From Chlamydoabsidia padenii (taxonomy: Eukaryota > Mucoromycota > Mucoromycetes > Mucorales > Cunninghamellaceae): DNA of 64,000 nucleotides. The stretch is from NCBI GenBank assembly GCA_025330725.1, contig JAIWND010000048.1, positions 1-64,000 on the forward strand. The letters run 5' to 3'. The position numbers were made by a program, and so were the translations under genes. Positions within the stretch are counted from its first letter, which is position 1; the number at the start of each line of letters is the position of its first letter. This document shows, piece by piece, positions 11,599 to 60,246 of the stretch. A model generated the notes under the pieces. It made no database searches, was not told the DNA's origin, and saw only the letters and a program-made list of their open reading frames with translations.

Positions 11599-11879
11599 TA
11601 CCTCTACTTTTTTCTCGCTCTCCAGAGGCAGTTGAGCTAAGTATTGTATATGAGAGCTCAACGTTTCAAGACGAAACTACTCCTCATCAACAATATAATC
11701 CATCGGTTCAGGTCTGTCATACTCGTCGACAACAGAACCTTTCCCATTTTCAAACAAGAATTAAATGTTCATTATCTCAGATTTTTGATGCAATCGTGAA
11801 AAAGAAATAAAACAAAGACAAGCTGTTAGATGCGCTCTTATATAACCCAGAGATGCCAAGACTTGTACTACCAGGACAT

Positions 11880-12034: not shown

Positions 12035-13365
12035 CAGTCCCCTTTAAAAAGTCTGTGGGATTTTTTTTGAATGCCGCTCAAAAATAAAAACCTCAACAAT
12101 TCTTTATTTGTTGTTTTCTCTCTCCTCTTTAACTCTTTTAACACCAAACTTTTACTATGTCTAACTATACCTGTTGTGAAAAAGCCTATATGCGTGATTT
12201 ACGTGACGGAGGTAAATCTGTTGCTGAAATTGCAACAATAATGGGCAGATCTGTGTCTGGGATCCACGCGATCTTTAACAACGAAAATGTAGATCCGTCC
12301 ACCAAATCAGCAAAACCGATCGGACGGCCACCAAAGTTGACCGAAAGGGACAGATGGGCTATCACTGTAACAGCAAAGCGAAACCGGCGATCTACATTAG
12401 ACGACATTTGTAATTCCGTGGGGGTCAATGCCGGCAAGTCGACGATTCGTAAGGTATTACATGATGCCGGCCTCAACAATCGGATCGCAAGGATGAAGCC
12501 ATACCTTGTCCCTCGCCACATCACCCAAAGGCGTGTCTTTGCTATGGAACATCTTTCGTGGATTTGGAACACGGGAGGAACGTTATTTGGACCGATGAAT
12601 CATCATTCGAGTTGGGGCGAAACAGCAGGCAACTTCGGGTGTGGCGGACGGTGACTGAAGAATTGGAACCACATTGTACTGGCTCAACATTCAAAAGTGG
12701 CAGGTCCTCGGTCATGGTTTGGGGTGCAATTGCATATGGAAAGAAGTCGAAATTGGTGTTTATGGATCCAGCGAAAAAGGAAGCACCTGGTTTCATAGAA
12801 CAAGTCTATGAAGGCTCATTGCGGGACTTTTTGGAGGATTTCGACAATCCAATTTTGATGGAAGATGGGACCCCGGTTCACAACAGCCAACTGACAAAGC
12901 AATGGAGGGAAGGGATCGGTCTGGAAAAAATGAAGTGGCCCGCTCAATCACCAGATTTGGGCCCGATCGAACACCTGTGGTTCCAACTCAAACAAGAGGT
13001 GCAGAAGCACTACCAAGCAAGCATGACGATCGATTTGCTGAAACAAATCATCCAAAAGGCCTGGGACGACATCAATATGGAAGCCATCAACCGTTTGGTG
13101 GACTCTATGCCCAACCGTGTTATGACCCTAAAGAAGAATAACTTCAAAAGCACCCGTTATTAGTAGTCTATAGTCAATTCATTAAAAAATGAATAAAAAT
13201 ACTTTATTTTAACATTATCAATAAACATTATATATGTTTTTAATTGTGTAAAATTTGGGATGGGGTTGTCTAACTAGATGTTGGGTAAAGTGCAAAAGAA
13301 GATAAAAAAGTGCTAAAAAAGGGAAGTAAAAAATTTGAACTCCACAGACTTTTTAAAGGGGACTG
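12035..13365 (+). mobile_element. Tc1/mariner-like element with perfect 24-bp terminal inverted repeats
   Basis: The element starts CAGTCCCCTTTAAAAAGTCT (12035) and ends with the exact inverse complement (13342-13365), a perfect 24-bp inverted repeat ending ...GTGG. The right flank is TA as expected for this superfamily; the left flank is CA, one base different. It carries one transposase gene in the + orientation. Length (1331 bp) and structure are typical of Tc1 elements. Confidence 0.93.
12157..13163 (+). pseudogene. Tc1 transposase broken by one frameshift
   Basis: The first frame (12157-~12555) encodes the paired-type DNA-binding half: helix-turn-helix KSVAEIATIMGRSVSGI, the GRPPKLTERD hinge, and a second helix-turn-helix. 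It stays open past the break but loses homology and stops at 12654. The second frame (from ~12556 to 13163) carries the DDE core. Its first Asp is in VIWTDESSF, the second in LMEDGTPVHN (usual DNAP replaced by DGTP), and the Glu is in SPDLGPIEHLW. The switch between frames happens near HLSW/DLEHGRN, where a single-base indel explains it. Such genes are normally intronless, so a splice is unlikely. The copy therefore looks inactive but young, given its perfect terminal repeats. Confidence 0.85.
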
Positions 13366-21578: not shown

Positions 21579-23602
21579 CTATTTGGGACAGTTTCTATAG
21601 ATGTGACCAGGTTGCGAACACCTTCCACATCGTCGAGGGGTTCGTTCGGCCAGCTCAAAAGCGGATGAATCCCGTTGAGTGGAGCTGGTGTTGTGTCTCG
21701 TCGATCCAGTCGGACGACCCCTACCACTTCTAACAGCTGGATCAAGTAGTGGTGGTGATGGCCCGAAGGCAATTTCTTCGAGGCGTTGTCGAGCTTGTAT
21801 ATGTTGTTGCAAATTTCCCTGGTTGTATCGTTCTATAATCCGGTCCACCAAAGGTTGTATATCCCCATCCCCACTTCCCCCTTCATCCATTGTTTGATTT
21901 ACCTGGCCGCCAGGGAAGTCGGTACTTTCATCAATCCACCAGTGTTTGTTAAAGTCGTTGAGAGAGAGGGTGGCATCAGGTGTATCTCTTCTGATGTTGG
22001 CGATGTGGTGGGCACAAGAGAGCCCTACAAAATAAATGGTTAGTTACAGTATACGCTAATGTCACTTTCTTACCCATAATTGTTGTAAATGTGTTGGTAC
22101 AAGGTGAGATATCCGTTTCCATAGATTTGTCGACCTGTTTCCTTGTTTCGTTCAAAGCGTAAGAAGAGACCTTGCCAATGATCCTAGCAAAAAGAGGAAT
22201 TTGGTGAGAGTGGGCAATACGAATTCGATCATTCATTATCTTCGCCTGAATTTCCTTGCACTGATTTGCAACAGCTAGATCGATCTTTTGCTGGACGTCA
22301 CGAAGATGGCTTGTCGAGGTCTTCACATAGGATTTGATTGATCGGTGAGCGCTTTCCACCCGAGATGTTGTCGTTGTCCCCAAATGCAAGAAGTGTCGAG
22401 TCAAAAATGTGCCAAATTGTATTTTATGTGGGAGCCATGACGATTCAAGGTAAGAGATTACAGGCCAATGATTTCCACTATATGTCGATTTCAGCTGGTT
22501 CCATGCCCTATCGAATCCATCTTCTTCCCAAAACCGTGCCACTAAGTTCCAAGCCGCCAAGAATTCATTCCAGTCATCGTCGCTGCTGAAGTGCTTTTTG
22601 CAATTGGTGAGAATGTTTTTGTTGATGTGCCACATGCATAGTACATTGTGGGAAGCCGGAAAAACACCAGGAATAGCATTCATCAGCAAGTTCACGATCA
22701 GTAGCAATAGTACTGGGATCAGGAATTCCATTATACAACTTCTGGCTAATTTTTCGTAAAGCCCAGTCGTAGTCATCTTGCTTTTCATCCCGCAAAAAGA
22801 CGAAGCAGCAGAAGAATGTTGACCAGGAGCTTGTAATACCCACCACTTCCAACAGAGGCATCCGGAATTTGTTAACCTTGTAGGCGCAATCTATCAAAAA
22901 AAAAAAAAAAAAAATAGAGCCATACTGTCGAACCAAGTCGATTGATGTTTTGTGTGCAAAAAAAAGATGGGTAATCTTGTCTTCGCTGTCAACGCGAAAA
23001 TCAAACACATACTTGTTCGAGTTCGAGAGTTCGTTAACAAGTGCCCTAATTGGTGTTCGTCCATTTAATTCCTTTTGCCTGTTCTTGTATCGTTCGTTAT
23101 AGACAGTACGGGCGACGAGCATTGCTGAAGGATCGGCTCGCCGAATTGACGATACAATATCTCGAGGTAGAGAGCTACTAGCAGACATGACCGCCACTGT
23201 TTGTCGATGTGTTGCATTGAGACGGCGTACACATGGGTGGCCAGACAAATCAGTATCAAGTTCGTGATTGTGGTCGTTGCAAATCACCCGGAGATTCCAT
23301 TCACCGTCGCGTAAGGTGGCCTTCCAATGGAAAGGGCATCCAGTTAATCTTGAACCAGTATTTGGTCTAACCACAGGTGCAACACGTCGCTGTTGATAGA
23401 CACCACCACGATCGCACTTGAATTCAACAGCTTGTAGATCACCCTTCCTATTTTTCTTGCTACGCTTGATGGTGATTCCAGCACCATTTTCGATTCCAAA
23501 TTGCATAACATAATCCTTACAACTATCCGCATCATCAAAACGGAGTTGCTCGGGCATCACCATCGTAAAGAATCGTTGTTGTTGTTGTTGTTGTTCAGAC
23601 AT
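21579..23602 (-). pseudogene. MULE/FAR1-type transposase with SWIM and zinc-knuckle, one frameshift
   Basis: The start MSEQQQQQQRFF leads to a FAR1-like WRKY/GCM zinc-binding domain (VEFKCDRGG...RLTGCPFHW...NDHNHELD). The MULE DDE core follows, with LIDCAYKVNKFRMPLLEVVG, then IATDREL, then CMWHINKNIL. Near 22684 the frame shifts by one base between RELA and LMNAIPG. The C-terminal part has a SWIM-like motif (SPCTNTF...GLSCAHHI) created by an intron at 22073-22025, then a CCHC zinc knuckle (CGRCSQPGHIYRNCPK). A 19-base poly-A at ~22893 sits in the core and could be an intron or an expanded homopolymer. Because of the frameshift the gene is probably inactive, unless that base is a sequencing error. 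Confidence 0.82.
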
Positions 23603-23637
23603 AATATTGGTTGAGAGTAAAAGGGAAAATAGAGCAG

Positions 23638-23778
23638 TCAAAAAAGTTTTATTTTTTAAAAGGACGAATATGATTGGCTCGGCGACCAATATATCCGGGT
23701 AGGGTGTAGAATTTTTTTTTTTTTTTGTAAAGGAGGGTGTAGAAAGAGAAATTGTGGGGTGTAGAAATAACAATTCCC
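23638..23778 (-). repeat. MULE 1 right terminal inverted repeat
   Basis: This is the inverse of 20903-21010 with an internal duplication of CTACACCCT plus a 15-base homopolymer. Confidence 0.9.
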
Positions 23779-23782
23779 ATAA

Positions 23783-29580: not shown

Positions 29581-30481
29581 CTGCCTGTTTAATAAAGAAT
29601 GTTGTTATAATTGGCTGGTCTGTATAGAACCCCGATATTCCCATTGTTTTAGTAGTCCAAAGAAGACATTGATAGCGTCATCATCAATGCAGGTGTTTGA
29701 TTTCAAATACAATATATGGGAGAATGATCTAGTTTATGAGGTTCATAATACAATTGCTAAAGCGTGAGTTATTTTGGTTTGGAAGAGCTAACCAGAGACT
29801 ATTTCGAAAAACTGAATGGAGTTCCATCATCGATCATCGCTGGGGTTTCATCATTGCTCATCAGAGGTACTCCCCCCTACACGCCTTATAGGGGATTGGA
29901 GGTACCTCCAAAATACCAACTCCACTCAGTTTTCTCTTATAAAAAAAGATACAACAAATCTCAAACTCAACATCTTTTAAACTTCGGTTTAATCCCGGTC
30001 TTTTTAACTTTTTTTTGAAACGTCGACGTTCACCGCACCCGTAGGGTGCCCACCATTTGGGCCGATGGCCAAGGGGAGCAGGGGATAAAACCTAGAGCCT
30101 AATAAACCACATAAACGTTAGACCACTCCAAACCACTAGTCACTTTTTAAAATGGAAGCATGTGTAGTGACAATTTGATTTGAAATACTTGACTTGTGTA
30201 ACTTTGACTTTTAACTTTTGATATGTTTTGGCAGCTTTTATTAGAAAAGCAATTGCTTATTTGACACTATTAAAGAAGTAAGGGTCGTTGAAGTTGGATT
30301 TAAATGTCTTATCTAAATAAAAAAAAATATTCCCGACTCCTTTTACTATGCCTGATTGTTGGATGGGTGTTAGATGTAACTGTGCGAACTGAGAGGGCAG
30401 TTAGGCCAATATCAGTTACATTTCAAGGTAGCCTGACTGGCCCTGAAATTTTCGGGGTGTGGTGTCCTCTCTTTAGATTTA
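29581..30481. other. Intergenic, no gene recognised
   Basis: This is AT-rich sequence with one short palindrome-like GC-rich patch (30010-30085: GCACCCGTAGGGTGCCC, GGGCCGATGGCC). No ORF with family resemblance and no tRNA-like fold was noticed. Confidence 0.35.
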
Positions 30482-30630
30482 GAAAGGCCTCTACTCCCTC
30501 CATTGTCAACTAAGGCTAATGATTAAAGTGGTGATGTGAACACTGTGGCATATTTCCAACATAAGTCACCGCAAAAACCAAGCTCCAAGGCTCCTGTGTC
30601 AGTATGTTCAGGCTTGCGATGACTTTTTTT

Positions 30631-30903
30631 CTAGACGAAAGGAAACTTCATTTTCAAACGCCGAACACCAAAATTCCGTGCGTCTAGCGTAGTAGCAATT
30701 CTCAAAAACCAGTATTTCTGTTGCATGCCCCTTTTTTCGACTTTGACCAACTCCTTTTTGAACGGGATGGAATTTTTAAATCCCGCTATATTCTTTTCTC
30801 CCCAAAAGGGGTGATCGTTTAAGTTCATCTCCCATACAAAGTATTGCTGGCGAAAATTTGTAAAGGATAGGTACATATCTTTTAGGAAGTCAGGTAATAT
30901 CAA
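30631..30903 (-). CDS. Small hypothetical ORF inside Fanzor element A
   Basis: This 90-residue open frame is divergent from the Fanzor gene, begins MILPDFLKDMYLSFTNF and ends in a basic tail. It is conserved without change in copy B. No family was recognised. Its conservation says little, because the whole element is nearly identical. Confidence 0.25.
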   Translation of the reverse strand: MILPDFLKDMYLSFTNFRQQYFVWEMNLNDHPFWGEKNIAGFKNSIPFKKELVKVEKRGMQQKYWFLRIATTLDARNFGVRRLKMKFPFV

Positions 30904-31316
30904 TCTTTTGAAGTACTGCAGTCTGTTTCAAACATTTCGTACATGTCGTAAATTCATTTTGTCATTTCCCGTAGTGTCCATCCTGCATATATTCCCATCT
31001 GACGTTTGGAGTCAGGATCGTACCGTTTGATGTATAGCTTCCTTTACCTTAAACGAAATCTATAACCTTCAGGAATGCAATGTACTAAACAGAAAAGAGA
31101 AGGCATTATTGATTGTCAATTGATAGTTATATTAACTTCTCCATGATATAACAAGACCTTAAGAAGGAAATGGAAGGAATAAGAATCTTCTTTGTTTCAT
31201 GCAACAAGATAGGACTGAAACCACATAACTGTGAATTTTTCCCTCCTTATCTTTTGCTTTTTACTTTTTTTCTTCTTTATTCTTTCATTCATTATATATA
31301 CCTTTAACTTTATCTG

Positions 31317-34179
31317 ATGGCGCGTACCAAACAAGGTATGAAGGAAGCGCAAGACGGAAGATGAAGACGGTGAGGATCAAAATCGGTGGCCCAACCTACT
31401 TCCATTGGATCAAAAAGCTAGTGAAGAACAACCAAGTAAGCCAAATATTGTTTGATAGCTCTTTGACTATTTGTTCTAAAACTCATCTTTTGTTTGCAAC
31501 AAACAGAACCTCCCAAACGCCAACGACGTGGCAAGTCAAAGAACATCACCCGCCGCAAACAAGACTTTGATGAAAAGAAAGGGAAAGAAGACGCAAAAAA
31601 GGCTCACCAGAAGAACATACAAGACCAAAATAAATCCAGAAAATCACCTCCTACTTGCATAAAGGAGAAAAATGTTGAAGCACCGAAGACGCATTCTCGC
31701 AGTTCCAACAAATTATGTCCTTACAAGAAAAACTGTCAAAGTGCAACTTCTCGCAACTTGTTGGGTGGCGACTCCCGTACCAACACTATCAAACACGGTA
31801 TATCAGGCATTTTGAAAACCCTCCGGCGCAATAAAAAAAATGACATTTATGTCTGCTCTGTCCAATGTGTTAGGTTATGTGCGTCGTGCCAAGATCTGCG
31901 GTCATCTCTTTATACTACATTATTTCACTCAACGACTAGTGGCTGGACAGGCAATACCATCTGTTTGCTTCGACTACCGATTTACTTATAATGTATATCA
32001 ACTTATGACTGGACGGCAATGGTCAAACACTGAATTATTCAGTGAACAACTACTAACTAACATCAAAGTATCATTTGAAGAATTCAAGGTTATGATCCCT
32101 AGTGCTGTTTGTCGTTTACCATCCACCATAAATCAAGGAAAAGCACCTAATTATTTTGCGAATATAATGGCCTTTATAGCCCGCTCATATGTTTCCAATA
32201 TGGTAAATCACCTTGTGGAAGGGTTTGAACAAATCTACATCTCGTACCTACAAGCCCGGTTGTCACTTATAACACAAGCAATAATGCCGACTTCCCTCCT
32301 CAACGGCCTACTATTAAATATGCCGCACATTTGGATTCCTCTTATAGGAATCTTATATGAACGACTCTCTGGAGAATGCTTTGCGCCAACTGACTGGAGA
32401 AACAAGTGATTGCTGGGGCCGTCTGTCTGGCCTGACTGAGGTAGATCGACAACCTGCAATCGTAGATGATACTAGCCATGAAAAAGAAGATGAATATGAC
32501 ACTGGCACTAATGCTGGCAATGATAAAGATAACAATGACACTGACAATAAAGGTGACACTGGAGAAAACCGCAGTAATGTAGATGCGATGTCTTTGGGTA
32601 CTGAACAACTCTCAAATATGGGAAGCTCTTCGACAATGGGTGCATCTAATCTCCAAATCGTACTGATACTCATTTTCATAAAAACATCTACAATAACTCG
32701 CTATCCTCATTTTTTTTTTACCTCTGTCATTTATGATATTCTTGTCGAGTTGGAAGAAATGAACGCCACCGATGTCCAATCACAAGCAACTATCAATCAA
32801 GTCAATCGTAGTTGGGCACATCATGAACTTTCAGTCTTACCAGAATGGACATATACCAGTCGGCGGCAAAAATTCAAGATGACTACTGGCGAACGTTTTA
32901 CATGAAAACTTCAAAATATTCAATATGGCGAAAATCAAGAAAGGACGTGGCATTTTGGAAAACCAATTTTATCCTGATGGATATTCCTTGTGCTTTCCTT
33001 TCAAAAGGTTGTGGCAACTTCACATGGCACTCCCATTTCCCTGCATGATATAGAGCCTTCAATAATGTAATACTTTGACGTATGGGGGATAGATCCTGGA
33101 GTAACTGAAGTATTTTTTGCGTCTGATTCTTCTGATCTCGATGCCTATACCTCGGAAACTGATATGATGGATGAACCAATCTTGGCCGCTCGTAAAGACA
33201 AACGTCACCAGGTCCTAAAACTCAGTGCAGCTGAATTTTACTGCTCGTCAGGGTATAACAAGACCACCACAAAGATCAAGAACTGGAAAGACTTGCATGG
33301 AATCAGTACCATCGAAAGCACCATGGGATCACTTAAAATTGCATCAATCGCACGTATACAAGATTACATTGTTAACAAGATGATATCATTGGACAGACTT
33401 CTTTTGTTCTACAATGATGATTTCCAAAAAGTTCGGTTCTTCAATTACCGTGGCAAACAAAAGGCTGCCCGAGAAATGGTGCAAATCTTTGTTGAAGCTG
33501 AACACAAGTATGAACGTCTTTCTAACAGAGGCAATTGTTGTTTCGTGCAGCGGCAGCGATCGAAGAACGATGGAAGTTGGAAGAAACGACGGTGTCAATT
33601 CGACAAAATTTCCCAAGGAATACCTTCTATACAGTAAGCGAATTCGTCTGAAAATATATGTTGAAAAGAGTGATAGTGTAACTTTTTGTTTTGTTTTTCT
33701 TGGGCGTGCTGTGTAGACCTAAAATACGCAAATGGAAAAAACATCCCTTTGAAGAATCAAACAAGATCCCATTACTGTGTGTCGGTGACGGAAAGTTCGA
33801 TCGAAGATCTTTCCGTAGAAAACCGCGTGGTCTAGTGAAGGCATTCCGGAAAGTAACAAAGCTGGCACAAAGACAACACTTAATGTTTGTGGTGGATGTG
33901 AACGAACAATATACATCGAAGGTGTGTTCGAGACGTGGAAAACGATCATTGGAAAATGTACGTGTTGGTCATAATAGGCGGTCAAACTTGCATAGTATGG
34001 TAAGCTGCAATGCTTGTCACATTGTATGGCAACGAGACGTCAATGCCTCCAGAAACATTCATTCCTTGGCCTTGTTCGCAATTTGTGGTTGGTGCCGGAC
34101 GTCTTCACACGTGGATACGTACAGACGCCCAACGAAAATAATCCGGGTAGTAAAAACCCGTCTGACGCATAAACCGTAA
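31317..34179 (+). CDS. Fanzor1-like (eukaryotic TnpB/OrfB homologue) nuclease, copy A
   Basis: Fanzors are eukaryotic relatives of TnpB, RNA-guided DNA endonucleases with a RuvC fold. A basic N-terminal part (PPKRQRRGKSKNITRRKQDF) is followed by the helical Fanzor1 region (31840-32409: YVRRAKICGHLFILHYFTQR), probably joined by an intron 31797-31873. An acidic insert follows (32460-32600). Then comes the RuvC I block VWGIDPGVTEVFFAS (Asp codon 33092-33094), with FYCSSGYNKTTTKIKNW and FFNYRGKQKAAREM. After an acceptor near 33717 comes LCVGDGKF, then RuvC II VVDVNEQYTSKVCSRRG (Glu 33904-33906), a C-x-x-C half-finger (SCNACH) and RuvC III VWQRDVNASRNI (Asp 34036-34038). The first zinc pair reads CSRR rather than CxxC. 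A TAA directly precedes the RuvC I block, and not all frame changes resolve as introns, so intactness and the start are uncertain. Confidence 0.82.
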
Positions 34180-34235
34180 GTGGCACCTCCTTTTCTTTTC
34201 CTTTTCTAAACCTTCCTTTCTATTTTATAGTAATT

Positions 34236-34584
34236 GGTCTCTTATCTGGCTTATATGAATAATACAATATGTTCGAATGAAACAGTTGGCTGCATTTGTG
34301 TCCTGGCTTTTGGAATAAAATACAAAATTCATGCATGTATTTCCTCACTGTTTGTCGGAATGCGAACTTGTTTTCATGTATTATTTACTTTATTCCACAA
34401 GACAAAAGTTTATACGTTTATGAGAATGACAGCACATTCAACAAATCCGTACATTTGCTATGATATTGTCTTGTAAAGGTCAATCTGTCAATTGTGTACC
34501 CTTGAGAGCCCTAAAACAATTGCAATGGTCATCGTGGATATAATTAATTAATTAATTACTTGATAGTCAGATCATTTTAAATGA
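34236..34584. other. Intergenic, right flank of Fanzor element A
   Basis: AT-rich; contains a TTAATTAATTAATTAC run near 34543. No gene was recognised. Confidence 0.35.
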
Positions 34585-39470: not shown

Positions 39471-40773
39471 CTAATTTAAGCACTTGGGAACACCATCCGA
39501 GTTCAACAGTGATTGATCTTCGGATAAAGTGCGAGGACCATCATGCACCTTGGTGTGAAGTAAACGACTGACACTTCCCGCAGGGTAGATAGGGATGACT
39601 GACGTATTGAATTTTTGGTTGATTGAAGGATTTTCTTTGGAAAAGCCTTTACCTTGTAAAACATTGTAAGGGTCGGTGAAATAGGTAGACTTCTTTTCAT
39701 CAGACGGAGGGAAGTAGTGGGCGATCAATTCAATAATTTCCTTCATATTTTCCTTAGTAGCATAAATGACAGCATTAGGACCAGCATCATAAGTATAAGC
39801 CGCCTTGTAGACACCATCATTGGAAGCATTGTATTCATGGATCAGTTGAATAATGCCACGAGATGTGTCATTGAGATAAAAGATGGGCGGAAAAGTGTCC
39901 AGACACACAGAGTGGAATTGATTGGAATCACGCATAGTCAGCTCAGCGAATGATTGGAAATCTTTGTTTTTAATGGCCTGTTTCATAGCATCCATTCGCC
40001 CAGGAACAACTTGTAGTCGTTCTTTCATCAAAGGACTGCTTTCAATTGTTTGCTGCATCCCTGAAGTAGAAGATGTACCTTTCTTAGCATCGGAAACGAC
40101 ACAGACTAATGCTTCCAGTTCCGGCCAGTGTGTGTCAGGAGCAATTTGGACTGCACGAGAGTCAGATCCATCTGCTTCTGATCCCATTTCCCACGCAACA
40201 AACCCACCAAATAACGAACGACAAGCTGATCCAGATCCTTGACGAGCAATACGGGACAAGTCAGTCAAGGAAGTAGGAAGATCGAATAATTTGGCCAAAG
40301 TAAAGACAAGTGCAGCCAAACCAGACGCGGAGGAAGCCAAACCGGCAGCGGTGGGGAAGTTGTTTTCAGAGCATACATGAAGAGGATAAATCGATAAAGG
40401 TGGCAAGCTGGAATCTTGCTCCTCCATCAATCGTCGAAGTGCACGTGTTTCCCGGAAGCAGTTGTGCATACGCTTATTCTTGGTAATATCTTCTTCAATT
40501 CCATTTAGCCAGAGTCTATCGCGAGTATAATCCTTACTAGCACTAATGCTGGTTTTGCTGTGAAGGATATCTTGAGATAAAGTCACAGACAGGGAATCAT
40601 TAGTGGGCAAGATGAGTTGAGTGTCTCTTTTCCCCCAGTATTTGATGACCTTCATTGATATGGAAACGACAATGATGAAAAAATAAGTATAAAGGTATCA
40701 AAAGATTATAGGTTTCAAAGCCCTATTTACTTACGGCAATATTGACAGGAGCAGTACAGGTGACTGATACCAT
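39471..40773 (-). CDS. MVD1: Diphosphomevalonate decarboxylase
   Basis: This enzyme catalyses the ATP-dependent decarboxylation of mevalonate diphosphate to isopentenyl diphosphate, the last step of the mevalonate pathway feeding ergosterol synthesis (yeast ERG19). Exons are 40773-40735 (MVSVTCTAPVNIA) and 40649-39471, giving 405 codons plus TAG. Signatures are IKYWGKRD, LPTNDSLSVTL, the GHMP-kinase ATP loop PTAAGLASSASG (residues ~112-123), SGSACRSLFGGFV and AYTYDAGPNAVIY. The Asp of YTYDAGPNA and the Ser/Arg of SGSACRS correspond to catalytic residues of the family. Length equals that of yeast MVD1 to within ~10 residues. It shares a 193-bp divergent promoter with the mitochondrial GluRS gene. 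Confidence 0.96.
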
Positions 40774-43066
<2,293 letters not shown>

Positions 43067-43165: not shown

Positions 43166-45725
43166 CTATAGAGAAGGAGAAATGGTCATTTTGCGCACTT
43201 CACCATGAGGACTGATCAATAGACAAGTAGAAAGGACACCACATTCTTCTCCACCTTGTAGCATAGCAGCTTTCTTTCGACCGCTACTAACCATGCTGCT
43301 TCCTAAAGGTTCATGCACACAGGCGACTAGATGCCATCCAGGCCCTACATGAAAAACACCCACTGGTTTTTGTTGTTGTCCAGACCCATGTCTTGTTTGG
43401 TAGACCTTTAACAAACCACGGCGAGCTGAGTAAATGACCAGAAACAAGAGTAAACGGGTTCGATGTTCGGTGCCCTGTTCTTTGTCTTGATACTGAATCC
43501 ACCCACAATGAGCATCTCTCATACCTTTCCACATCCGAATCATTTGACCCTGTTGAATATCCCATAAAATCACCCGCCCCAAAGCATCACTCGTTGCTGC
43601 CAAAGTATGATGCTGACTGTTCTGGAACGGAGGCGCTACTTCAATCGAATGAATAGATCGACCTGGATCGGATAAATGTAGTAAGGAGGGAATCGTCGAG
43701 GCTTGCTCAATTACTTGAGGAGGTATTGGCATACGAGGCACAAAGGGTGCTGCTATATTAGAATTCTGTATCATTTGTTGTTGAGAGGGCGATGATGAAA
43801 GTGGCAATGTTGATCCGGAGGAGGATAACGTGTCATCAGGGTGACTCGTTGTTGTTCCAGACCACCATGATTTGGCAAATGAGAAAACTGGACTAGCTAC
43901 GCGAGATACCATATAAGACGCCATAGAGACAGCAGACATATATGGACGACTTGTTTCGTGAGTTGCATAAAAACTAATCATTGGTTGTATTCCCACTCCA
44001 ATATAACGTGATGTTGCTTCAGCAAATGGTTGAGATGTTGCTGTTGCTAATCCAGGAGTGTTTGATGATGAGGACAAGGATGATGAGGATGAGGATGAAG
44101 AAGACGAGGATGAAGATGATGCGGAAGGCATCATGATAGAATAAAGAGTCGCTGCTGTCATCGCTGCTGTAGGATCTCCACTATTACCAGTACCACCTGC
44201 TGCACCCATTGGTGTATTTTTTGCTGTAGACCACCACCACCAAGATGATCCCATCCTATTTTGACCAGAATCTGATAAAATGTCGGAAGGCAAAGTCACT
44301 GAAGAAGGTCCAAGAGATATGATATCACGCACCTTTTCTTGCCGATCCAGTTGCCATTTTTTATATGTGAAGGCTGTTTGCATTTTAGACGCATCAATCC
44401 CACTTTCCCGTTGGCCATCACATACACGTAAAACCATCCAAAGGCTTTGTCCGTCGATACTAACCACTCGATTATTATCAAATAATACAGTGATTTCTTC
44501 GTCCTCCTGGTGATAGTATTGTTGGTGTTGATGTTGATGTTGATGTCGATGAAGGCGCGTACCATTTGCATAAATATGTTGCTGCTTTGACTTTTGTTGT
44601 TTTTGTTGCTGCTTTATAGCTGGTGTTGGAGGTGATGTAGTTGAAGGTGGTGGCGGAGTTCGTAATTTGATCGAAATAATAGGTGATGATTCCAGTAATT
44701 GTGCTGTCAATAATATACCTGTCTAAATAAAAGTTAGTATAGCTTATTCGAGGGCATTTTATTTTACGTTTCACAAGCTTACAGAAGAATAGACACGTAG
44801 CCAACCAGTACTATAACCAATCATGATAAATATTTGGCTAGAATAAGAAGAAGAAGAAAAAGAAAAGATGCCTTATTATTCCCTCTCTGATAGCCCTCCC
44901 CGCTTTTTTTTTTTTTTTTTTTTTTTTTTTTCTAACCAAGATACTTACTTTTTCCTAGTAGACGGCACAAACAAGGGTAGACATAAAATACTAGTGATCA
45001 GTTCACCATCATCTGAGCAACCTGAGCCTTGACCAATAACAATGTATTCCCCTTGATCAGGATGGAGAGCTACCACCACAAATTTGCGTTGATAGGCCAT
45101 GGCAATGTATTTTCCTGCTGCTGAGGCGGAGACCAAATATGCTTCTTTACCAATGGGTGGTGCTGTTAGAGCCGGTGAAAAAGAACAAGTAGAGGAAGTC
45201 GATGATGATGAAGAAATCGAAGAGGACACATCAGTAGGTGCAGCTTCTGTTGTCATTTTCCCTGTTGATTTAGGTATTGAAATAGCTGATGTAGATGCAT
45301 GGTGTAAAGACGGAGAAGACGATGGTGATGACACTTGTGCTGCTGGTTGCAACTTTGGTAGAGGTGAAGATGATTTATCCTAGAGTGAAAATAATAATGA
45401 GATTCATGCCTTTTTACCAAACATCTGTTACTTACGTCGTCCAAACCCCAACTCCATTCTTTATCCCAGGAATCGACTACAACAACATGCATAGACTTGA
45501 TGCCATGAGACACGAACGAGGATTAGATTATTTTAATTTATTACCTGGATTGGAGTGTTGTGGGTTAGCTTTAGGTGTCTGATAGGCTGGTTGTTCGGTA
45601 GTGGTAGAAGAAGGTGATGGTGTGGTGGTTGTGTTTTTTGGTAACTTTCCAACCAAAATAGATAAAACAGGAGTTGGTATATGGTGATGAGGTTCTAATC
45701 TACACTTGAAAGGTGACGACAACAT
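43166..45725 (-). CDS. Rab3GAP regulatory subunit N-terminal-domain protein
   Basis: This resembles the N-terminal beta-propeller domain of RAB3GAP2, the non-catalytic partner of the Rab3/Rab18 GAP complex. Exons are 45725-45545, 45476-45436, 45379-44949, 44837-44783 and 44722-43166, giving 754 codons plus stop with exact phases. Family landmarks are SWDKEWSWGLDD near the N-terminus, YLVSASAAGKYIAMAYQRK, the IFIMIGYSTGWLRVYSSTG block leading into LLTAQLLESSPIISIKL, ATSDALGRVILWDIQQGQMI, MWKGMRDAHCGWIQ, LVIYSARRGLLKVYQTR and VGVFHVGPGWHLV. Long Ser, Trp (SSWWWWST) and Pro-rich inserts separate the blades. Animal RAB3GAP2 is ~1390 residues, so the C-terminal half is absent here, as expected for proteins keeping only this domain. 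Confidence 0.82.
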
Positions 45726-46097: not shown

Positions 46098-47108
46098 ATG
46101 CCAATTCAAAAGCTTGTAAAGGCAGGTACTTACTTGCGACGACTGGCAAAGTACATTGGTCCTGGGTTCATGATTGCTGTGGGATAGTAAGTAAGATCGC
46201 TTCCTATATAAAAATCAAGTTATACACCTTAACCTTAATTTTTCACGCAGTTTAGATCCTGGGAATTGGAGTGTGGATTTCTTGGGTGGTAGTCAGTTTG
46301 GTTATACCTTACTGTTTGTCATCCTTATATCCAATCTGATTGCCATTTTTTTACAAAACCTAGCAATTCGCTTAGGTACCGTTTCTGGTTTGGACCTCGC
46401 AGCCGCTTCTCGTCAACATTTATCGCAAAGATTGAATCTCTTTCTCTACATACTTGCTGAAATTGCTATTATCGCTACGGATGTTGCTGAAGTCATTGGT
46501 AGTGCCATTGCTTTGACACTTTTATTCCCTTCACTCTCGCTTCCTATGGGTGTGGCTATTACCGCTGCCGATGTCTTTATTATTTTACTTTTTTACAAAG
46601 AAGAAAACAACAACGAGGAAGGTGGGCAACAACACGATATGCGGGCAGTACAATACTTTGAATGGTTCGTAATGGTCTTGGTCTCTGCAGTGGGGGTATG
46701 CTTTGTGATCGAATTGACTCTTTCACCAGTGGTGTTCGGGGATGTAATGCGTGGTTTCTTGCCATCACCAGATATCATTAAGGATCCAGAATGTCTATAT
46801 GTGGCTATTGGAATCATTGGCGCCACTGTAATGCCGCATAACTTATTTTTACACTCCTTCATTGTTCAATCAAGATGTCACGTCTGGCGATCTGACCGGC
46901 CCGTTCTGGTAGAGAAGAATCACAATAACAACAATTTTACTGCCTCCATCAAGGAAACTGATTCTATTGCTGAACATGTTGAAAAAGTATCCATGGATTA
47001 CGACACTATCATCATGACGGCCGCCTCATTTGACGTTACCGATGACAATAGCGATAATAATCATGCGGAGCAAGTCAAAAAGATCAATTTTCATTCTTCT
47101 ACAAACAG

Positions 47109-47145
<37 letters not shown>

Positions 47146-48174
47146 AGTGAGCGACAGGTATCAACAAGTACAGAAGGAACTGTCATCATAGCCACCGAAC
47201 ATCACAAACAACATCAACAAAATATGACAGAATTACGCCATCACCTTGCTACACATGTCAATGCCAATCTACATTATAGCTTCATTGATTTGATAGTCGC
47301 TCTTTTTTTTGCCTTTTTTATCAACACCGCCATCCTGGTTGTTGCCTCTGCCAATTTTCATCAAACGACCATTTCAGCAACTTCATCCATGATTACAGAT
47401 TTATTCGATGCTCACGACTTGTTGGAACAGTATATAGGGCGTGTGGCAGCCTTCGTATTTGCCATTGCACTATTGTGTGCGGGTCAATCTAGTACTCTCA
47501 CGGCGACTTTGGCAGGACAGGTGGTGATGAGTGGGTTTCTAGGCATGACCACCCGACCATGGTTAAGACGATTGGTGACACGAGGAATTGCCATTGTACC
47601 AGCCATGGCAGCGGCCTGCTGGGCGGGACGGGCTGGTTTAAGCCAAATGTTAGTGGCAAGTCAGGTCGCACTTTCCATTCAGCTACCCTTTGCCGTTGTT
47701 CCGTTGGTATGGTTCACTTCCTCACCTGATATCATGAAATTAGATCTGATAAAAAAGCCGCCGCTTACCATCATAACCAAAACAAATATGGACCCGCCTT
47801 CAACTGGTACAATTGGATGGACATGGTTTAAAAGAGTATTTACAGCAAAAGGAAATAGTGAGAATCAGCAAGAACAAACAGAGCCTTTTCTGCAACATCA
47901 TAACAACAATACCACGGTGGGGGAATTTGAAGAAGCTACTTGCATGACTGATTTCTCGCCTTCCACAACACTTGTCAATCATTCCTACCCTGATGATATC
48001 ATGGATGATAATGATAACAATAATAATGGTGAAAGTGATTATTTACTGCTACCGATATGGCCTAACCCTCTTACCTATCCTAATTCCATACTAGTAAACA
48101 TCGTGGCCGGATTGGTTGCAGGATTACTGATCGCCCTCAATATCTATCTGGTCATCTCTACACTATTTATTTGA
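46098..48174 (+). CDS. Nramp-family divalent metal transporter
   Basis: This is a proton-coupled Mn/Fe-type transporter of the Nramp (SMF) family. Two exons (46098-46186, 46251-48174) give 670 codons plus TGA. Metal-site motifs are DPGNWSVD (residues 32-39) in TM1 and VMPHNLFLHS (around 223-232) in TM6. About 11 hydrophobic helices are visible, including LYILAEIAIIATDVAEVIGS. The C-terminal transport signature region reads LCAGQSSTLTATLAGQVVMS, which is diagnostic for Nramp. Two long polar loops differ from short bacterial members: residues ~240-330 (with a run of ~13 Ser) and ~535-620 (Asn-rich). Whether it is plasma-membrane or endosomal (Smf1/2/3-like) cannot be told. Confidence 0.92.
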
Positions 48175-53640: not shown

Positions 53641-53963
53641 TTGTACTGATTCCGATTTTTATTTAAAGATGTGTGCTACCAAGCTCTCAGGTATTCTTGC
53701 TTAAAGCTGCCTACTCATACCTCCAACAAATTTGGTTTCCTGTGTGTTGATAATCACAATAATTTTGTTACTTTCTGCTCTTTTTATACTTTCATTTAAA
53801 ATTACTATATTTGCTACTTGGCTTCTGTTTCTTATTGCAAGAACTAGCAAAAGTGAATTTTTCATTATTTTGTTACTAATCATTTATAATAAACTAGACA
53901 ATAGTCTAATTACTATAAAATAGAAAGGAAGGTTTAGAAAAGGAAAAGAAAAGGAGGTGCCAC

Positions 53964-56826
53964 TTACGGTTTATGCGTCAGACGGGTTTTTACTACCCGG
54001 ATTATTTTCGTTGGGCGTCTGTACGTATCCACGTGTGAAGACGTCCGGCACCAACCACAAATTGCGAACAAGGCCAAGGAATGAATGTTTCTGGAGGCAT
54101 TGACGTCTCGTTGCCATACAATGTGACAAGCATTGCAGCTTACCATACTATGCAAGTTTGACCGCCTATTATGACCAACACGTACATTTTCCAATGATCG
54201 TTTTCCACGTCTCGAACACACCTTCGATGTATATTGTTCGTTCACATCCACCACAAACATTAAGTGTTGTCTTTGTGCCAGCTTTGTTACTTTCCGGAAT
54301 GCCTTCACTAGACCACGCGGTTTTCTACGGAAAGATCTTCGATCGAACTTTCCGTCACCGACACACAGTAATGGGATCTTGTTTGATTCTTCAAAGGGAT
54401 GTTTTTTCCATTTGCGTATTTTAGGTCTACACAGCACGCCCAAGAAAAACAAAACAAAAAGTTACACTATCACTCTTTTCAACATATATTTTCAGACGAA
54501 TTCGCTTACTGTATAGAAGGTATTCCTTGGGAAATTTTGTCGAATTGACACCGTCGTTTCTTCCAACTTCCATCGTTCTTCGATCGCTGCCGCTGCACGA
54601 AACAACAATTGCCTCTGTTAGAAAGACGTTCATACTTGTGTTCAGCTTCAACAAAGATTTGCACCATTTCTCGGGCAGCCTTTTGTTTGCCACGGTAATT
54701 GAAGAACCGAACTTTTTGGAAATCATCATTGTAGAACAAAAGAAGTCTGTCCAATGATATCATCTTGTTAACAATGTAATCTTGTATACGTGCGATTGAT
54801 GCAATTTTAAGTGATCCCATGGTGCTTTCGATGGTACTGATTCCATGCAAGTCTTTCCAGTTCTTGATCTTTGTGGTGGTCTTGTTATACCCTGACGAGC
54901 AGTAAAATTCAGCTGCACTGAGTTTTAGGACCTGGTGACGTTTGTCTTTACGAGCGGCCAAGATTGGTTCATCCATCATATCAGTTTCCGAGGTATAGGC
55001 ATCGAGATCAGAAGAATCAGACGCAAAAAATACTTCAGTTACTCCAGGATCTATCCCCCATACGTCAAAGTATTACATTATTGAAGGCTCTATATCATGC
55101 AGGGAAATGGGAGTGCCATGTGAAGTTGCCACAACCTTTTGAAAGGAAAGCACAAGGAATATCCATCAGGATAAAATTGGTTTTCCAAAATGCCACGTCC
55201 TTTCTTGATTTTCGCCATATTGAATATTTTGAAGTTTTCATGTAAAACGTTCGCCAGTAGTCATCTTGAATTTTTGCCGCCGACTGGTATATGTCCATTC
55301 TGGTAAGACTGAAAGTTCATGATGTGCCCAACTACGATTGACTTGATTGATAGTTGCTTGTGATTGGACATCGGTGGCGTTCATTTCTTCCAACTCGACA
55401 AGAATATCATAAATGACAGAGGTAAAAAAAAAATGAGGATAGCGAGTTATTGTAGATGTTTTTATGAAAATGAGTATCAGTACGATTTGGAGATTAGATG
55501 CACCCATTGTCGAAGAGCTTCCCATATTTGAGAGTTGTTCAGTACCCAAAGACATCGCATCTACATTACTGCGGTTTTCTCCAGTGTCACCTTTATTGTC
55601 AGTGTCATTGTTATCTTTATCATTGCCAGCATTAGTGCCAGTGTCATATTCATCTTCTTTTTCATGGCTAGTATCATCTACGATTGCAGGTTGTCGATCT
55701 ACCTCAGTCAGGCCAGACAGACGGCCCCAGCAATCACTTGTTTCTCCAGTCAGTTGGCGCAAAGCATTCTCCAGAGAGTCGTTCATATAAGATTCCTATA
55801 AGAGGAATCCAAATGTGCGGCATATTTAATAGTAGGCCGTTGAGGAGGGAAGTCGGCATTATTGCTTGTGTTATAAGTGACAACCGGGCTTGTAGGTACG
55901 AGATGTAGATTTGTTCAAACCCTTCCACAAGGTGATTTACCATATTGGAAACATATGAGCGGGCTATAAAGGCCATTATATTCGCAAAATAATTAGGTGC
56001 TTTTCCTTGATTTATGGTGGATGGTAAACGACAAACAGCACTAGGGATCATAACCTTGAATTCTTCAAATGATACTTTGATGTTAGTTAGTAGTTGTTCA
56101 CTGAATAATTCAGTGTTTGACCATTGCCGTCCAGTCATAAGTTGATATACATTATAAGTAAATCGGTAGTCGAAGCAAACAGATGGTATTGCCTGTCCAG
56201 CCACTAGTCGTTGAGTGAAATAATGTAGTATAAAGAGATGACCGCAGATCTTGGCACGACGCACATAACCTAACACATTGGACAGAGCAGACATAAATGT
56301 CATTTTTTTTATTGCGCCGGAGGGTTTTCAAAATGCCTGATATACCGTGTTTGATAGTGTTGGTACGGGAGTCGCCACCCAACAAGTTGCGAGAAGTTGC
56401 ACTTTGACAGTTTTTCTTGTAAGGACATAATTTGTTGGAACTGCGAGAATGCGTCTTCGGTGCTTCAACATTTTTCTCCTTTATGCAAGTAGGAGGTGAT
56501 TTTCTGGATTTATTTTGGTCTTGTATGTTCTTCTGGTGAGCCTTTTTTGCGTCTTCTTTCCCTTTCTTTTCATCAAAGTCTTGTTTGCGGCGGGTGATGT
56601 TCTTTGACTTGCCACGTCGTTGGCGTTTGGGAGGTTCTGTTTGTTGCAAACAAAAGATGAGTTTTAGAACAAATAGTCAAAGAGCTATCAAACAATATTT
56701 GGCTTACTTGGTTGTTCTTCACTAGCTTTTTGATCCAATGGAAGTAGGTTGGGCCACCGATTTTGATCCTCACCGTCTTCATCTTCCGTCTTGCGCTTCC
56801 TTCATACCTTGTTTGGTACGCGCCAT
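53964..56826 (-). CDS. Fanzor1-like (eukaryotic TnpB/OrfB homologue) nuclease, copy B
   Basis: It is identical in sequence features to copy A. The helical N-terminal domain lies at 56303-55734, RuvC I GIDPG (Asp codon 55051-55049), RuvC II Glu 54239-54237, the Cys-x-x-Cys half of the zinc finger, and RuvC III Asp 54107-54105. It carries the same CSRR variant in the first zinc pair and the same unresolved frame changes, including the stop just before the RuvC I block. The shared interruptions mean that they predate the duplication or are unrecognised introns. Confidence 0.82.
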
Positions 56827-57239
56827 CAGATAAAGTTAAAGGTATATATAATGAATGAAAGAATAAAGAAGAAAAAAAGTAAAAAGCAAAAGATAAGGAG
56901 GGAAAAATTCACAGTTATGTGGTTTCAGTCCTATCTTGTTGCATGAAACAAAGAAGATTCTTATTCCTTCCATTTCCTTCTTAAGGTCTTGTTATATCAT
57001 GGAGAAGTTAATATAACTATCAATTGACAATCAATAATGCCTTCTCTTTTCTGTTTAGTACATTGCATTCCTGAAGGTTATAGATTTCGTTTAAGGTAAA
57101 GGAAGCTATACATCAAACGGTACGATCCTGACTCCAAACGTCAGATGGGAATATATGCAGGATGGACACTACGGGAAATGACAAAATGAATTTACGACAT
57201 GTACGAAATGTTTGAAACAGACTGCAGTACTTCAAAAGA

Positions 57240-57512
57240 TTGATATTACCTGACTTCCTAAAAGATATGTACCTATCCTTTACAAATTTTCGCCAGCAAT
57301 ACTTTGTATGGGAGATGAACTTAAACGATCACCCCTTTTGGGGAGAAAAGAATATAGCGGGATTTAAAAATTCCATCCCGTTCAAAAAGGAGTTGGTCAA
57401 AGTCGAAAAAAGGGGCATGCAACAGAAATACTGGTTTTTGAGAATTGCTACTACGCTAGACGCACGGAATTTTGGTGTTCGGCGTTTGAAAATGAAGTTT
57501 CCTTTCGTCTAG
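57240..57512 (+). CDS. Small hypothetical ORF inside Fanzor element B
   Basis: It is the same 90-residue frame as at 30631-30903 in copy A; no family was recognised. Confidence 0.25.
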   Translation: MILPDFLKDMYLSFTNFRQQYFVWEMNLNDHPFWGEKNIAGFKNSIPFKKELVKVEKRGMQQKYWFLRIATTLDARNFGVRRLKMKFPFV

Positions 57513-57749
57513 AAAAAAAGTCATCGCAAGCCTGAACATACTGACACAGGAGCCTTGGAGCTTGGTTTTTGCGGTGACTTAAATTGGAAATATGCCACAG
57601 TGTTCACATCACCACTTTAATCATTAGCCTCAGTTGACAATGGAGGGAGTAGTGGTCTTTCAAAATTCCGTGCGTACTTTCCGTGCGCCTAGCATTCCCC
57701 TCCCCAAATCCGCTATCCATGTCAAAACCAATGCATATACTATAACAAC

Positions 57750-57835
57750 GCCTGCCATAACCCAATTACATACAAATATCTGCAATAGCCTAATTACATA
57801 CAGACGCTCATCATAACCCAATCATTGAAAGACGC
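57750..57835 (+). repeat. Degenerate ~35-bp repeats
   Basis: Words CATAACCCAATTACATACA / CAATAGCCTAATTACATACA / CATAACCCAATC recur three times between the Fanzor element and the Helitron remnant. Confidence 0.6.
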
Positions 57836-57979
57836 CAGATAGAGCCCAACAAGGGACGGCAGTCGGCGACCCGGTCGTTTATTGACAAAAAAAAAAAAGA
57901 AAAAAAAAAGGATGGGTTAAAAGGGACAAACTATAATGATGGGACAAACTATACTGCCAAACAATCTATAGCATTACGT

Positions 57980-59640
57980 CTACGTAAACCATGTTATTAG
58001 CAGAAGGATCAGATGAAGAAGAGGAAGAAGACAATGGGACCGCCACATACAGGTTTGCCCCTGGCTTCTGTGCATGGTCATTGTAAAGGCAGGACGGACA
58101 GGCAATTGTCGGTGACGCAGGGTAAATGGTTTTTGGATTCTTTGCTTGTAAAGTGAATTCTTCAAATCAGGAAATTCTTGTTGTTGCCAAATGATCGTAC
58201 TTGAATAGAGTGTTGTAATAGCTTGACCACATACATCTTTGTCCCGGTACAAATACCAATTTCCACATCGAGATTTCAGAGAACAATCAATGACATCCCG
58301 ACTTTGATGGTGAGGAGGTGGCCGGGTATACCATTCGGATACAATGAGTGAAGGAATTCCACAGGATAGTTGATAGAGTAGTTGAAGGAATCGTCGCTGT
58401 CGGTGAGGGCGTCCATTGATTCGTATGTCTTGGCTTCACCGGGGAAAGATTCTGCTGCTTCTATGTTGATCCGATCCACAGATGTATTTTTCGTCGTGAG
58501 GATGGTACGGGTCGCGTAAAAAGAGGGATCTTGGTGTTGTCTGAGGTCAGGGTAAAATTTTGTCTGATAATGATTGCAATGTCTTCAGAATCCAAAAGCC
58601 AGTCTTGTTTGACGGGTACCTTTTAATGGTGAAATTCATCATTTCCAGTAGAGAGAAGCTGGGCAGCAAAGTCGGTGTCCGTAATCCAAGACAAAAGAGA
58701 TTCGGGAGAAGAACATGACAATGCAATGTTAATCTTGCCGCTGTTGCAGCACATACTGAAGACAGGACTCGTGTTACCGGATACTGTGAGTTTTTCTGAT
58801 AGCCACATCTTGCTTCCACAATTGTTGCAAACAACTTCCATCCCAGGCAGCACATGACGGCGATAATTAGGACCATGCGCATGACACACGTTGGGACTAA
58901 ACACATCTTTATGATTGAATGAATGACTTGAAGCAGCTTTTCCATATCAGGGACCATGTTCAGCGTTTTCAGTAGTTTTCTTTGCTTGACAGAGACGATG
59001 ATTCCTTCTACCATGAGATATTGCGCCGCATGCAATACAACGTTGATCAATCACACCTAATAATGATCAAATAATGCTAATTAGTACACGCAAGTATATA
59101 TGAATTGTATGATGTATGTATATTTTACCCTCAGTTGCATCTTCAGTTGCATTATCACTTGGATTAGAGGCTTCTTGAATACGTGGATTAGCAGGACAAA
59201 GACGATGTATTGATCTTGAATGTGAAGTAGACTGGCATCTTGGACAGCTTGGGTTACTTGTATTAGTAGTAACGTGGTCATCTAAAACATATCTAAAGAA
59301 AGAAAGAAAAGTTAGTAAGAAGATTTGAGGTAAAAAGAAAAGAGCAAGTATACTTTTCTTCTCCTTACCTGTAGGCAATTGCGTTTTTTGATTCCGTGCA
59401 TTATAAGGACAGAGACGATGAGTAGATCTTGAATGTGAAGTAGACTCGCACCTTGGGCAGTTACCTAAAACGAATTGAGGCAATTAGTTAGTCCGCCTTC
59501 AACCAAAACCATATGTTTTCCTTTATTTTATTTTTTTTATTTTTATTTTAGCTTACCTGCTATGCTGCTTCTGACATTCCTTGATTGTGTAGTAGATTCA
59601 CCATTAAGATGTCCGGGCAAGGGCAAAGGCTAATGGAGGG
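57980..59640 (-). pseudogene. Truncated Helitron (Rep/Pif1-helicase) remnant
   Basis: On the minus strand, in order, come CCHC-like fingers (CPRCESTSHSRSTHRLCP, CPRCQSTSHSRSIHRLCP, CIACGAISHGRRNHRLC). Next is the Helitron cysteine region (VVCNNCGSKMWLSEKL, then MCCNSGKINIAL). Then, without the Rep HUH domain or the first helicase motifs, comes the C-terminal Pif1-type helicase part: INIEAAESFPGEAKTY, YPVEFLHSLYPNGIPGH, LTIKVGMSLIVL and RHRQLPVRPAFTMTMHRSQG. Stops and frame changes separate the blocks. The internal loss of the replication initiator makes this a dead fragment. Confidence 0.8.
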
Positions 59641-60246
59641 AAGAATTGTTGAAAGATTGAGAAGTCCTTCTTCAAAAAATTGTGTTTAGAAGAAGAGAAG
59701 AAGAAGAGAGGAAAATAAAATTCTACTCTTTTTATACAAAAAAAAAAAAAAAAAGGAACAATGCAATTTTATTCCGCTTGTCGGGAATTGGCGACCGCTG
59801 ATTGGGCAGACTGCAGCCAAGTACTAAAAATGATTTCCATTTACTTCGCACGGACCCTTTACCGTTCTTTCGAACAACAAGGTCGTTCCATCTTAGTAAT
59901 AGCATGACGCATTTCATTGGTCAATTTCTCTTTCGAAAAAGAAGATCGTTCCATCTTAATAATGGCATGACGCTTTGCATCAGATCAATTCTAGATTTCG
60001 ACAAAGGTTAGAGCCAAAAAAAAGGTCATTTCAAAAAAGGGTTTGATGCATTTCATTTGTAAAAAAAAAAAGAAGTCAGGACAGTTAAAATCAAATAATG
60101 TTTCAATCAGGCATAGTAAAAGGAGCCGGGAATAGATTTTTATTATAGACAAGACATTTAAATCCAGCTTATACGATAAAGTTTACGATTAGCTAAGTAC
60201 CCTTACTTCTTTAATAGTGTCATATAAGATCAAATAAGGGGGGGGA
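59641..60246. other. Intergenic with a diverged duplication
   Basis: It contains the pair of diverged ~65-bp units listed separately, several short poly-A runs and a seven-base G run at 60239. No gene was recognised. Confidence 0.4.
59870..59995 (+). repeat. Imperfect tandem duplication around TCGTTCCATCTTA
   Basis: Units at ~59876 and ~59940 share GTCGTTCCATCTTAGTAATA / GATCGTTCCATCTTAATAAT followed by GCATGACGC. Confidence 0.75.

Follow-up and report, generated by a model that had tools for sequence, protein, structure and literature searches.

The window, as the whole 64,000-base stretch analysed here is called (bases 1-64000 of contig C43 in the 34.2-Mb, 95-contig assembly of Chlamydoabsidia padenii), very probably holds a defunct Fanzor1 gene close to the 3′ end of its carrier, a Helitron family (rolling-circle, RepHel) of this Mucorales fungus, in two copies, A and B, whose identity to each other would have arisen by gene conversion. 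Fanzor proteins are eukaryotic relatives of CRISPR nucleases. The initial annotation described a Fanzor mobile unit at 30482..34235; the mobile-element context was supported in part, but the unit is apparently a Helitron-type element with Fanzor as its passenger, the interval is larger (30257-34253), and both copies in the window read as pseudogenes. The end proposed at 34235 is exactly where the identity between A and B stops, and the start proposed at 30482 is near 30477, where the DNA shared by A and B starts. The carrier is recognized by comparison of its copies: ends are shared among them, the RepHel-like remnants and Fanzor stand in one copy and one orientation, and the right end extends over the Fanzor 3′ end. 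The features of both copies are listed in Table 1.

Table 1. Features of the two Fanzor-bearing element copies in the window.
Feature	Coordinates	Strand	Basis
Copy A, whole Helitron-type element with Fanzor pseudogene	30257..34253	+	Ends set by comparing other copies
Left end of copy A, lacking part of the left-end sequence of other copies	30257..30358	+	Alignment with B, C and others; 73% identity to left end of B
118 bases between left end and MITE-like repeat, no match to copy B	30359..30476	+	BLAST of upstream regions
MITE-like repeat within the element, distinct from Fanzor	30477..30688	+	At least 52 further matches at at least 28 other places
Fanzor1 pseudogene (N-terminal blocks, RuvC, zinc ribbon)	31503..34177	+	tblastn of P0003, Pfam, lesions
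RuvC-I exon; DPG aspartate 33092, stop codon 33068 ahead	33071..33634	+	Motif positions, codon table
Probable intron separating the two RuvC exons	about 33635..33720	+	GT at 33635, AG before 33719; same break in annotated model P0002
RuvC-II/III and zinc-ribbon exon	33721..34177	+	Glu 33904, Cys 33925, lost Cys 33934, Cys 34006 and 34015, Asp 34036, frameshift near 34086
Right end of Helitron family, overlapping Fanzor 3′ coding end and stop codon	34124..34253	+	85-91% identity to right ends without full Fanzor; 31 genome places
Copy B, the longer of the two element copies	53890..60227	-	99.6% identity to A over 3788 bases; ends from copy comparison
Part of copy B without a single difference from 30562-34235 of copy A	53908..57581	-	Direct comparison
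Probable RepHel gene remnants in copy B: N-terminal zinc-knuckle part and C-terminal part with SQGQT	57980..59650	-	78-92% DNA identity to PF14214 locus

Identification of the gene as Fanzor1

On the plus strand, GIDPG (aspartate codon 33092) is followed by NEQYTS (glutamate codon 33904) and RDVNAS (aspartate codon 34036), which is the order that had been claimed for RuvC motifs I, II and III. The last exon (33685-34176) matches the TnpB-type zinc ribbon PF07282 in Pfam (45.6 bits against a cut-off of 26.3, E 8.1e-12), and the zinc-finger region proposed between RuvC II and III has lost one of its four cysteines; the RuvC-I exon by itself had no match in the Pfam search. Both Fanzor signatures set out in the relevant part of PMC10711439, DPG and a glutamate six residues ahead of the first zinc cysteine, are present in the window copy (GIDPG codons 33092-33095; glutamate codon 33904 and cysteine codon 33925).

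When single exons were compared with the PDB, nothing convincing was found, and a first profile of eight sequences matched SpuFz1 weakly (E 0.025). A family profile of 13 sequences, headed by the sister copy P0001 and not by copy A, retrieved 19 PDB sequences at E values up to 1, of which SpuFz1 was first (5.7e-11) and GtFz1 second (2.8e-6), with TnpB and Cas12-type proteins among the weaker matches and a ribosomal protein last; the placement within Fanzor1 is that of this profile. P0001 has 78% identity to the copy A query across 61% of the query. In the alignment with SpuFz1, the aspartate of DPG, the glutamate of the DEYxTS column and the aspartate of WNRD correspond to chain residues 777, 935 and 1000, which were counted by hand and are converted by an offset of 394 to D383, E541 and D606; in the portion of the SpuFz1 paper that treats the active site, these three residues are among the magnesium ligands. 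Because Pfam, the family profile, the ligand alignment and the published signatures agree, the gene is Fanzor1 by homology, Fanzor2 and TnpB being more distant. The family assignment of the initial annotation is thereby upheld by the PF07282 match, the DPG motif, the relocated RuvC-II glutamate and the best profile matches to SpuFz1 and GtFz1.

The pieces of copy A, joined as one query, matched two C. padenii proteins, a third from Halteromyces radiatus and a fourth from a JGI source. The blocks further upstream (31503-32283) align with the N-terminal half of the H. radiatus protein (tblastn E 3e-27), indicating that the multi-exon gene is real and bearing out the earlier description of a gene in several blocks. 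The structure prediction that had been proposed was attempted in two AlphaFold runs on the sister copy P0001 (mean pLDDT 36.1 and 40.5), but the models, made from shallow alignments, were too poor for clustering of the D-E-D residues to be read and were set aside; such clustering in a RuvC fold is favoured by the alignment with the SpuFz1 ligands.

Decay of the Fanzor1 gene

Fanzor-body DNA of this family is found at at least 12 loci, and ten copies were aligned across the RuvC part, omitting one that does not have this part (L041) and one that consists of the 3′ end only (L047). Among the aligned copies, the RuvC-I aspartate is retained in all seven that have the site, the glutamate in all ten, the RuvC-III aspartate in nine of ten and the full set of four cysteines in five of ten. 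Copies A and B keep the RuvC-III aspartate (34036) and three of the four zinc-finger cysteines; since all four are kept in half of the aligned copies, the loss in A and B is attributed to decay of that copy and not to membership in another family.

Several lesions contradict the intact gene of the initial annotation. A stop codon (33068) located eight codons ahead of the RuvC-I aspartate is common to A, B and a third copy, C, and the same three copies have lost the second zinc cysteine and are missing about 280-290 bases near 32889 that are present in two others (L042 and L044). This gap is read as a coding deletion, because the translation of the segment in the copies that have it resembles P0004. 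After RuvC-III, A, B and C differ by one base from the seven other aligned copies, resulting in a C-terminal frameshift, and A and B also have a frame break near 33003 relative to L042, L043 and L044. Pairwise dN/dS among six copies (B being omitted as identical to A) is between 0.54 and 1.0 in all 15 pairs.

It is conceivable that the element is an active Fanzor element as first annotated, with splicing that avoids the stop codon and the frame breaks so that an RNA-guided nuclease is still made. The aspartate, glutamate and aspartate of the active site are all retained in A and B, and such a gene model can be drawn, inasmuch as P0002, a protein annotated on the contig of the window that matches A and B equally, is spliced past the stop codon by a long intron. 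However, the P0002 model loses a long coding stretch in doing so and stops short of the zinc ribbon, about 280-290 coding bases, one zinc cysteine and the C-terminal frame are absent in any case, and dN/dS is near neutral; an active element is accordingly very improbable. The stop codon, the frame breaks, the deletion, the lost cysteine, the frameshift and the near-neutral dN/dS together indicate that A and B are pseudogenes, in which any Fanzor function is predicted to be lost. A caution for annotation follows: Fanzor loci with perfect motifs can be pseudogenes, apparently kept alike through gene conversion.

Element ends and the probable Helitron carrier

The left end reads TTATTTGACACTATT in most copies (at 30257 in A and 60227 in B), and the right end carries TTGTCTGGTTTA in most copies (at 34253 in A and 53890 in B). 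The 5′-TC and CTRR-3′ ends of Helitron1 are absent, most copies having TTATTTGAC and GGTTTA instead, and inverted repeats at the element ends were looked for by eye and none were seen. When the ends were folded in search of Helitron2-type hairpins, a 3′ hairpin was found in B (z -3.1) and none in A, and the left-end hairpin was no better than shuffled sequences in all five copies folded; because of this result, assignment to Helitron2 on the strength of a 5′ hairpin was abandoned. Having lost part of the left end as well as the 3′ hairpin seen in B, copy A looks immobile.

Genome-wide, the left end occurs at 32 places and the right end at 31. They form 16 left-right pairs on the same strand, in the right order and 1.3-6.3 kb apart, where about 0.1 would be expected by chance, and no reversed or opposite-strand pairs exist within 8 kb. 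Zinc ribbons were located at 32 places, two of them under the Pfam cut-off, and at 12 of the 32 the zinc ribbon lies 57-105 bases ahead of a right end. At six of the other 20 zinc ribbons (C53, C67, C48 twice, C39:55381 and C61), the short stretches compared have no DNA match to parts of the element.

Of the two copies, B alone has a zinc-knuckle part and an SQGQT part, located ahead of Fanzor on its strand, that we take, by motif recognition, to be from a Helitron RepHel gene. These scraps do not exceed any Pfam cut-off (the nearest is Pif1_2B_dom, 16.6 bits against 23.9), but a locus on another contig (C23:1446500-1453500; L078, L067) with 78-92% DNA identity to them starts with the same left end and has a frame that carries PF14214 (Helitron_like_N). 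The C23 copy is itself interrupted, and the genome-wide right-end search did not find its right end. The family yielded no intact RepHel: four loci from the eight PF14214 places were compared, only C23 shares DNA with the element, and C70, C81 and C83, where PF14214 lies in long open frames, have no DNA in common with it. The upstream region of B yields 101 matching pieces, the DNA of the RepHel region recurring widely.

Immediately left of the gene, and within the interval first ascribed to Fanzor, is the MITE-like repeat (30477-30688). It recurs at at least 28 other places, and the leftmost 0.2 kb of that interval is not Fanzor. Inverted ends were found in three of six solo copies tested and not in the other three. 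A search of the window against Rfam at gathering thresholds returned no match, so the repeat belongs to none of the known RNA families. Its position raises the question of whether another transposon, such as a MITE-like element or one of the MuDr type, is the real carrier of Fanzor, the Helitron parts being a nested insertion; Fanzor1 of other Mucorales is found in MuDr-type elements described in PMC3627910. Such a carrier is improbable, given that the repeat stops at a boundary of its own near 30688, ahead of the gene, that the right end and the zinc ribbon are joined at 12 places with near-constant spacing, and that the genome has 16 pairs of left and right ends.

A Helitron-type carrier is preferred, and its ancestral form probably consisted of a left end, a RepHel gene, a Fanzor1 gene and a right end, in that order, the last enclosing the stop codon of Fanzor. 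Copies would be moved in trans by a RepHel from elsewhere, and an intact Fanzor would have acted as an RNA-guided DNA endonuclease that favours persistence of the element. That an RNA-guided nuclease helps its element to persist has been proposed for both TnpB and Fanzor.

Fanzor and the right end

Four sampled elements are seemingly free of Fanzor, and in these the DNA similarity to copy A resumes at 34124 or 34137. As both positions are inside the Fanzor 3′ coding end, approximately the last 13 codons of the unshifted frame belong to the right end. Protein comparison revealed diverged remnants of the Fanzor zinc ribbon directly before the right end in three of the four (L080, L081 and L082) and did not find one in L079. 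Recent insertion of Fanzor into a Fanzor-free Helitron had been considered and was dropped on account of these remnants. Fanzor is probably an old passenger of the Helitron family and not a fresh capture, since the right end encloses its stop codon and remnants persist in three of the four elements seemingly without it. In an element on contig C57 (L083), the C-terminal part of Fanzor, to which the reading there was confined, has the glutamate, the RuvC-III aspartate and all four cysteines in open frames and continues into the right end of the family; a left end is located 2.5 kb upstream.

A more speculative and rather unlikely possibility is that RepHel and Fanzor1 have been lasting partners, the right end forming the 3′ tail of the Fanzor coding sequence and at the same time a guide-RNA scaffold, with Fanzor-poor elements as ‘ghost’ donors of guides in trans. 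The consensus fold of 13 right ends has nine pairs with one two-sided change and a covariation term that is not favourable, and a short hairpin at 34140-34180 has a z of -2.0.

Identity of copies A, B and C

The match between A and B spans 30477-34263 of A at 99.6% identity, and within it 3674 bases (30562-34235) are identical. The flanks of the identical block contain six substitutions in 85 bases and six in 18 bases; a rough Fisher test of block against flanks gives p 2e-19, with a grouping chosen post hoc and a slightly longer right part. Copy C (C43:96017-99820) resembles A in patches: in bins of 250 bases, there are 0-3 mismatches in five neighbouring bins and 14-20 in the adjoining bins.

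Either the identity of A and B results from gene conversion, the two copies standing in opposite orientations about 20 kb from each other, or it is an artefact of assembly in which a repeat was collapsed. The latter is unlikely but carries some weight, as a collapsed consensus would give an interior that is exactly 100% identical while the short ends carry 12 substitutions. Nevertheless, the assembly has kept C distinct even though C is A-like in patches, which points to a process of recombination. Gene conversion, which accounts for the patchy likeness of C to A as well as for the identity of A and B, is the best explanation of the 3674 bases.

Neighbouring genes and other Fanzor lineages

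The host genes that separate A from B encode a mevalonate diphosphate decarboxylase (39474-40697, minus strand), a RAB3GAP2-like protein (43169-44722, minus strand), an Nramp transporter (46195-48171, plus strand) and a class I tRNA synthetase (41870-42499, plus strand). Elsewhere in the window are two Tc1/mariner-type transposase genes with DDE_3 and HTH domains (10471-11676, minus strand; 12142-13160, plus strand) and a MULE transposase gene with a FAR1 domain (22577-23782, minus strand).

Other lineages of Fanzor were noted in the genome. A second lineage (L007, C67:1173082-1176294), which has homologues in C. padenii, Apophysomyces and Absidia, possesses DPG, the relocated glutamate and four zinc cysteines in long open pieces. 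A third is located on C48, C39 and C61 (L059, L060, L061 and L062), and L059 has an open frame of 354 residues from VDPG through the zinc ribbon. Zinc-ribbon remnants of a Fanzor lineage different from that of the window also occur within about 200 bases of the MITE-like repeat at two loci (L050, C23:710500-714500; L058, C75:11000-15000), and this repeat may have some link with Fanzor elements.

Comparison with known systems

Fanzor1 genes in Helitrons have been known since 2013; the C. padenii family itself is not previously described as far as was searched, no earlier description of a Helitron-Fanzor family of this species having been found in the literature of one library. The account of Chlamydomonas elements in Bao and Jurka 2013 (PMC3627910) places Fanzor1 inside the Helitron2 elements CRe-1, CRe-2 and CRe-3, which resemble the C. 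padenii element in having an intron-bearing Fanzor1 within Helitron-type ends and in being represented by many truncated or internally deleted copies. As described there, the CRe elements are non-autonomous Helitron2 elements with asymmetric inverted repeats and hairpins, whereas in C. padenii the host is a fungus, RepHel remnants share a copy with Fanzor, and the ends are not assigned to Helitron2. Closer in host, the elements ROr-4, PBl-3 and MCi-4 listed in the same paper contain Fanzor1 in the same fungal order, Mucorales, but are MuDr-type, with MuDr-like terminal inverted repeats and 9-bp target duplications according to that listing; the C. padenii element has Helitron-type partners and no duplication established.

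The Spizellomyces element Spu-1, as presented in the relevant sections of Saito et al. 2023 (PMC10432273), encodes a fungal Fanzor1, SpuFz1, whose catalytic acids align with those of the C. padenii gene. Those sections give Spu-1 inverted repeats of 30 nt and report no transposase found within its ends, in contrast to the C. padenii element with its RepHel remnants and no inverted repeats by eye. The C. padenii elements without a full Fanzor keep the right-end region and in this respect resemble the ‘ghost’ loci of the Spu-1 type. Both ghost loci and co-occurrence with Helitrons are discussed in the same sections of that paper, and the sharing of one copy, one pair of ends and one orientation by RepHel and Fanzor remnants in C. 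padenii offers a concrete place to test the idea voiced by Saito et al. If the partnership were indeed a lasting one, it would be a eukaryotic parallel of IS200/IS605, in which an HUH single-strand transposase is combined with an RNA-guided nuclease.
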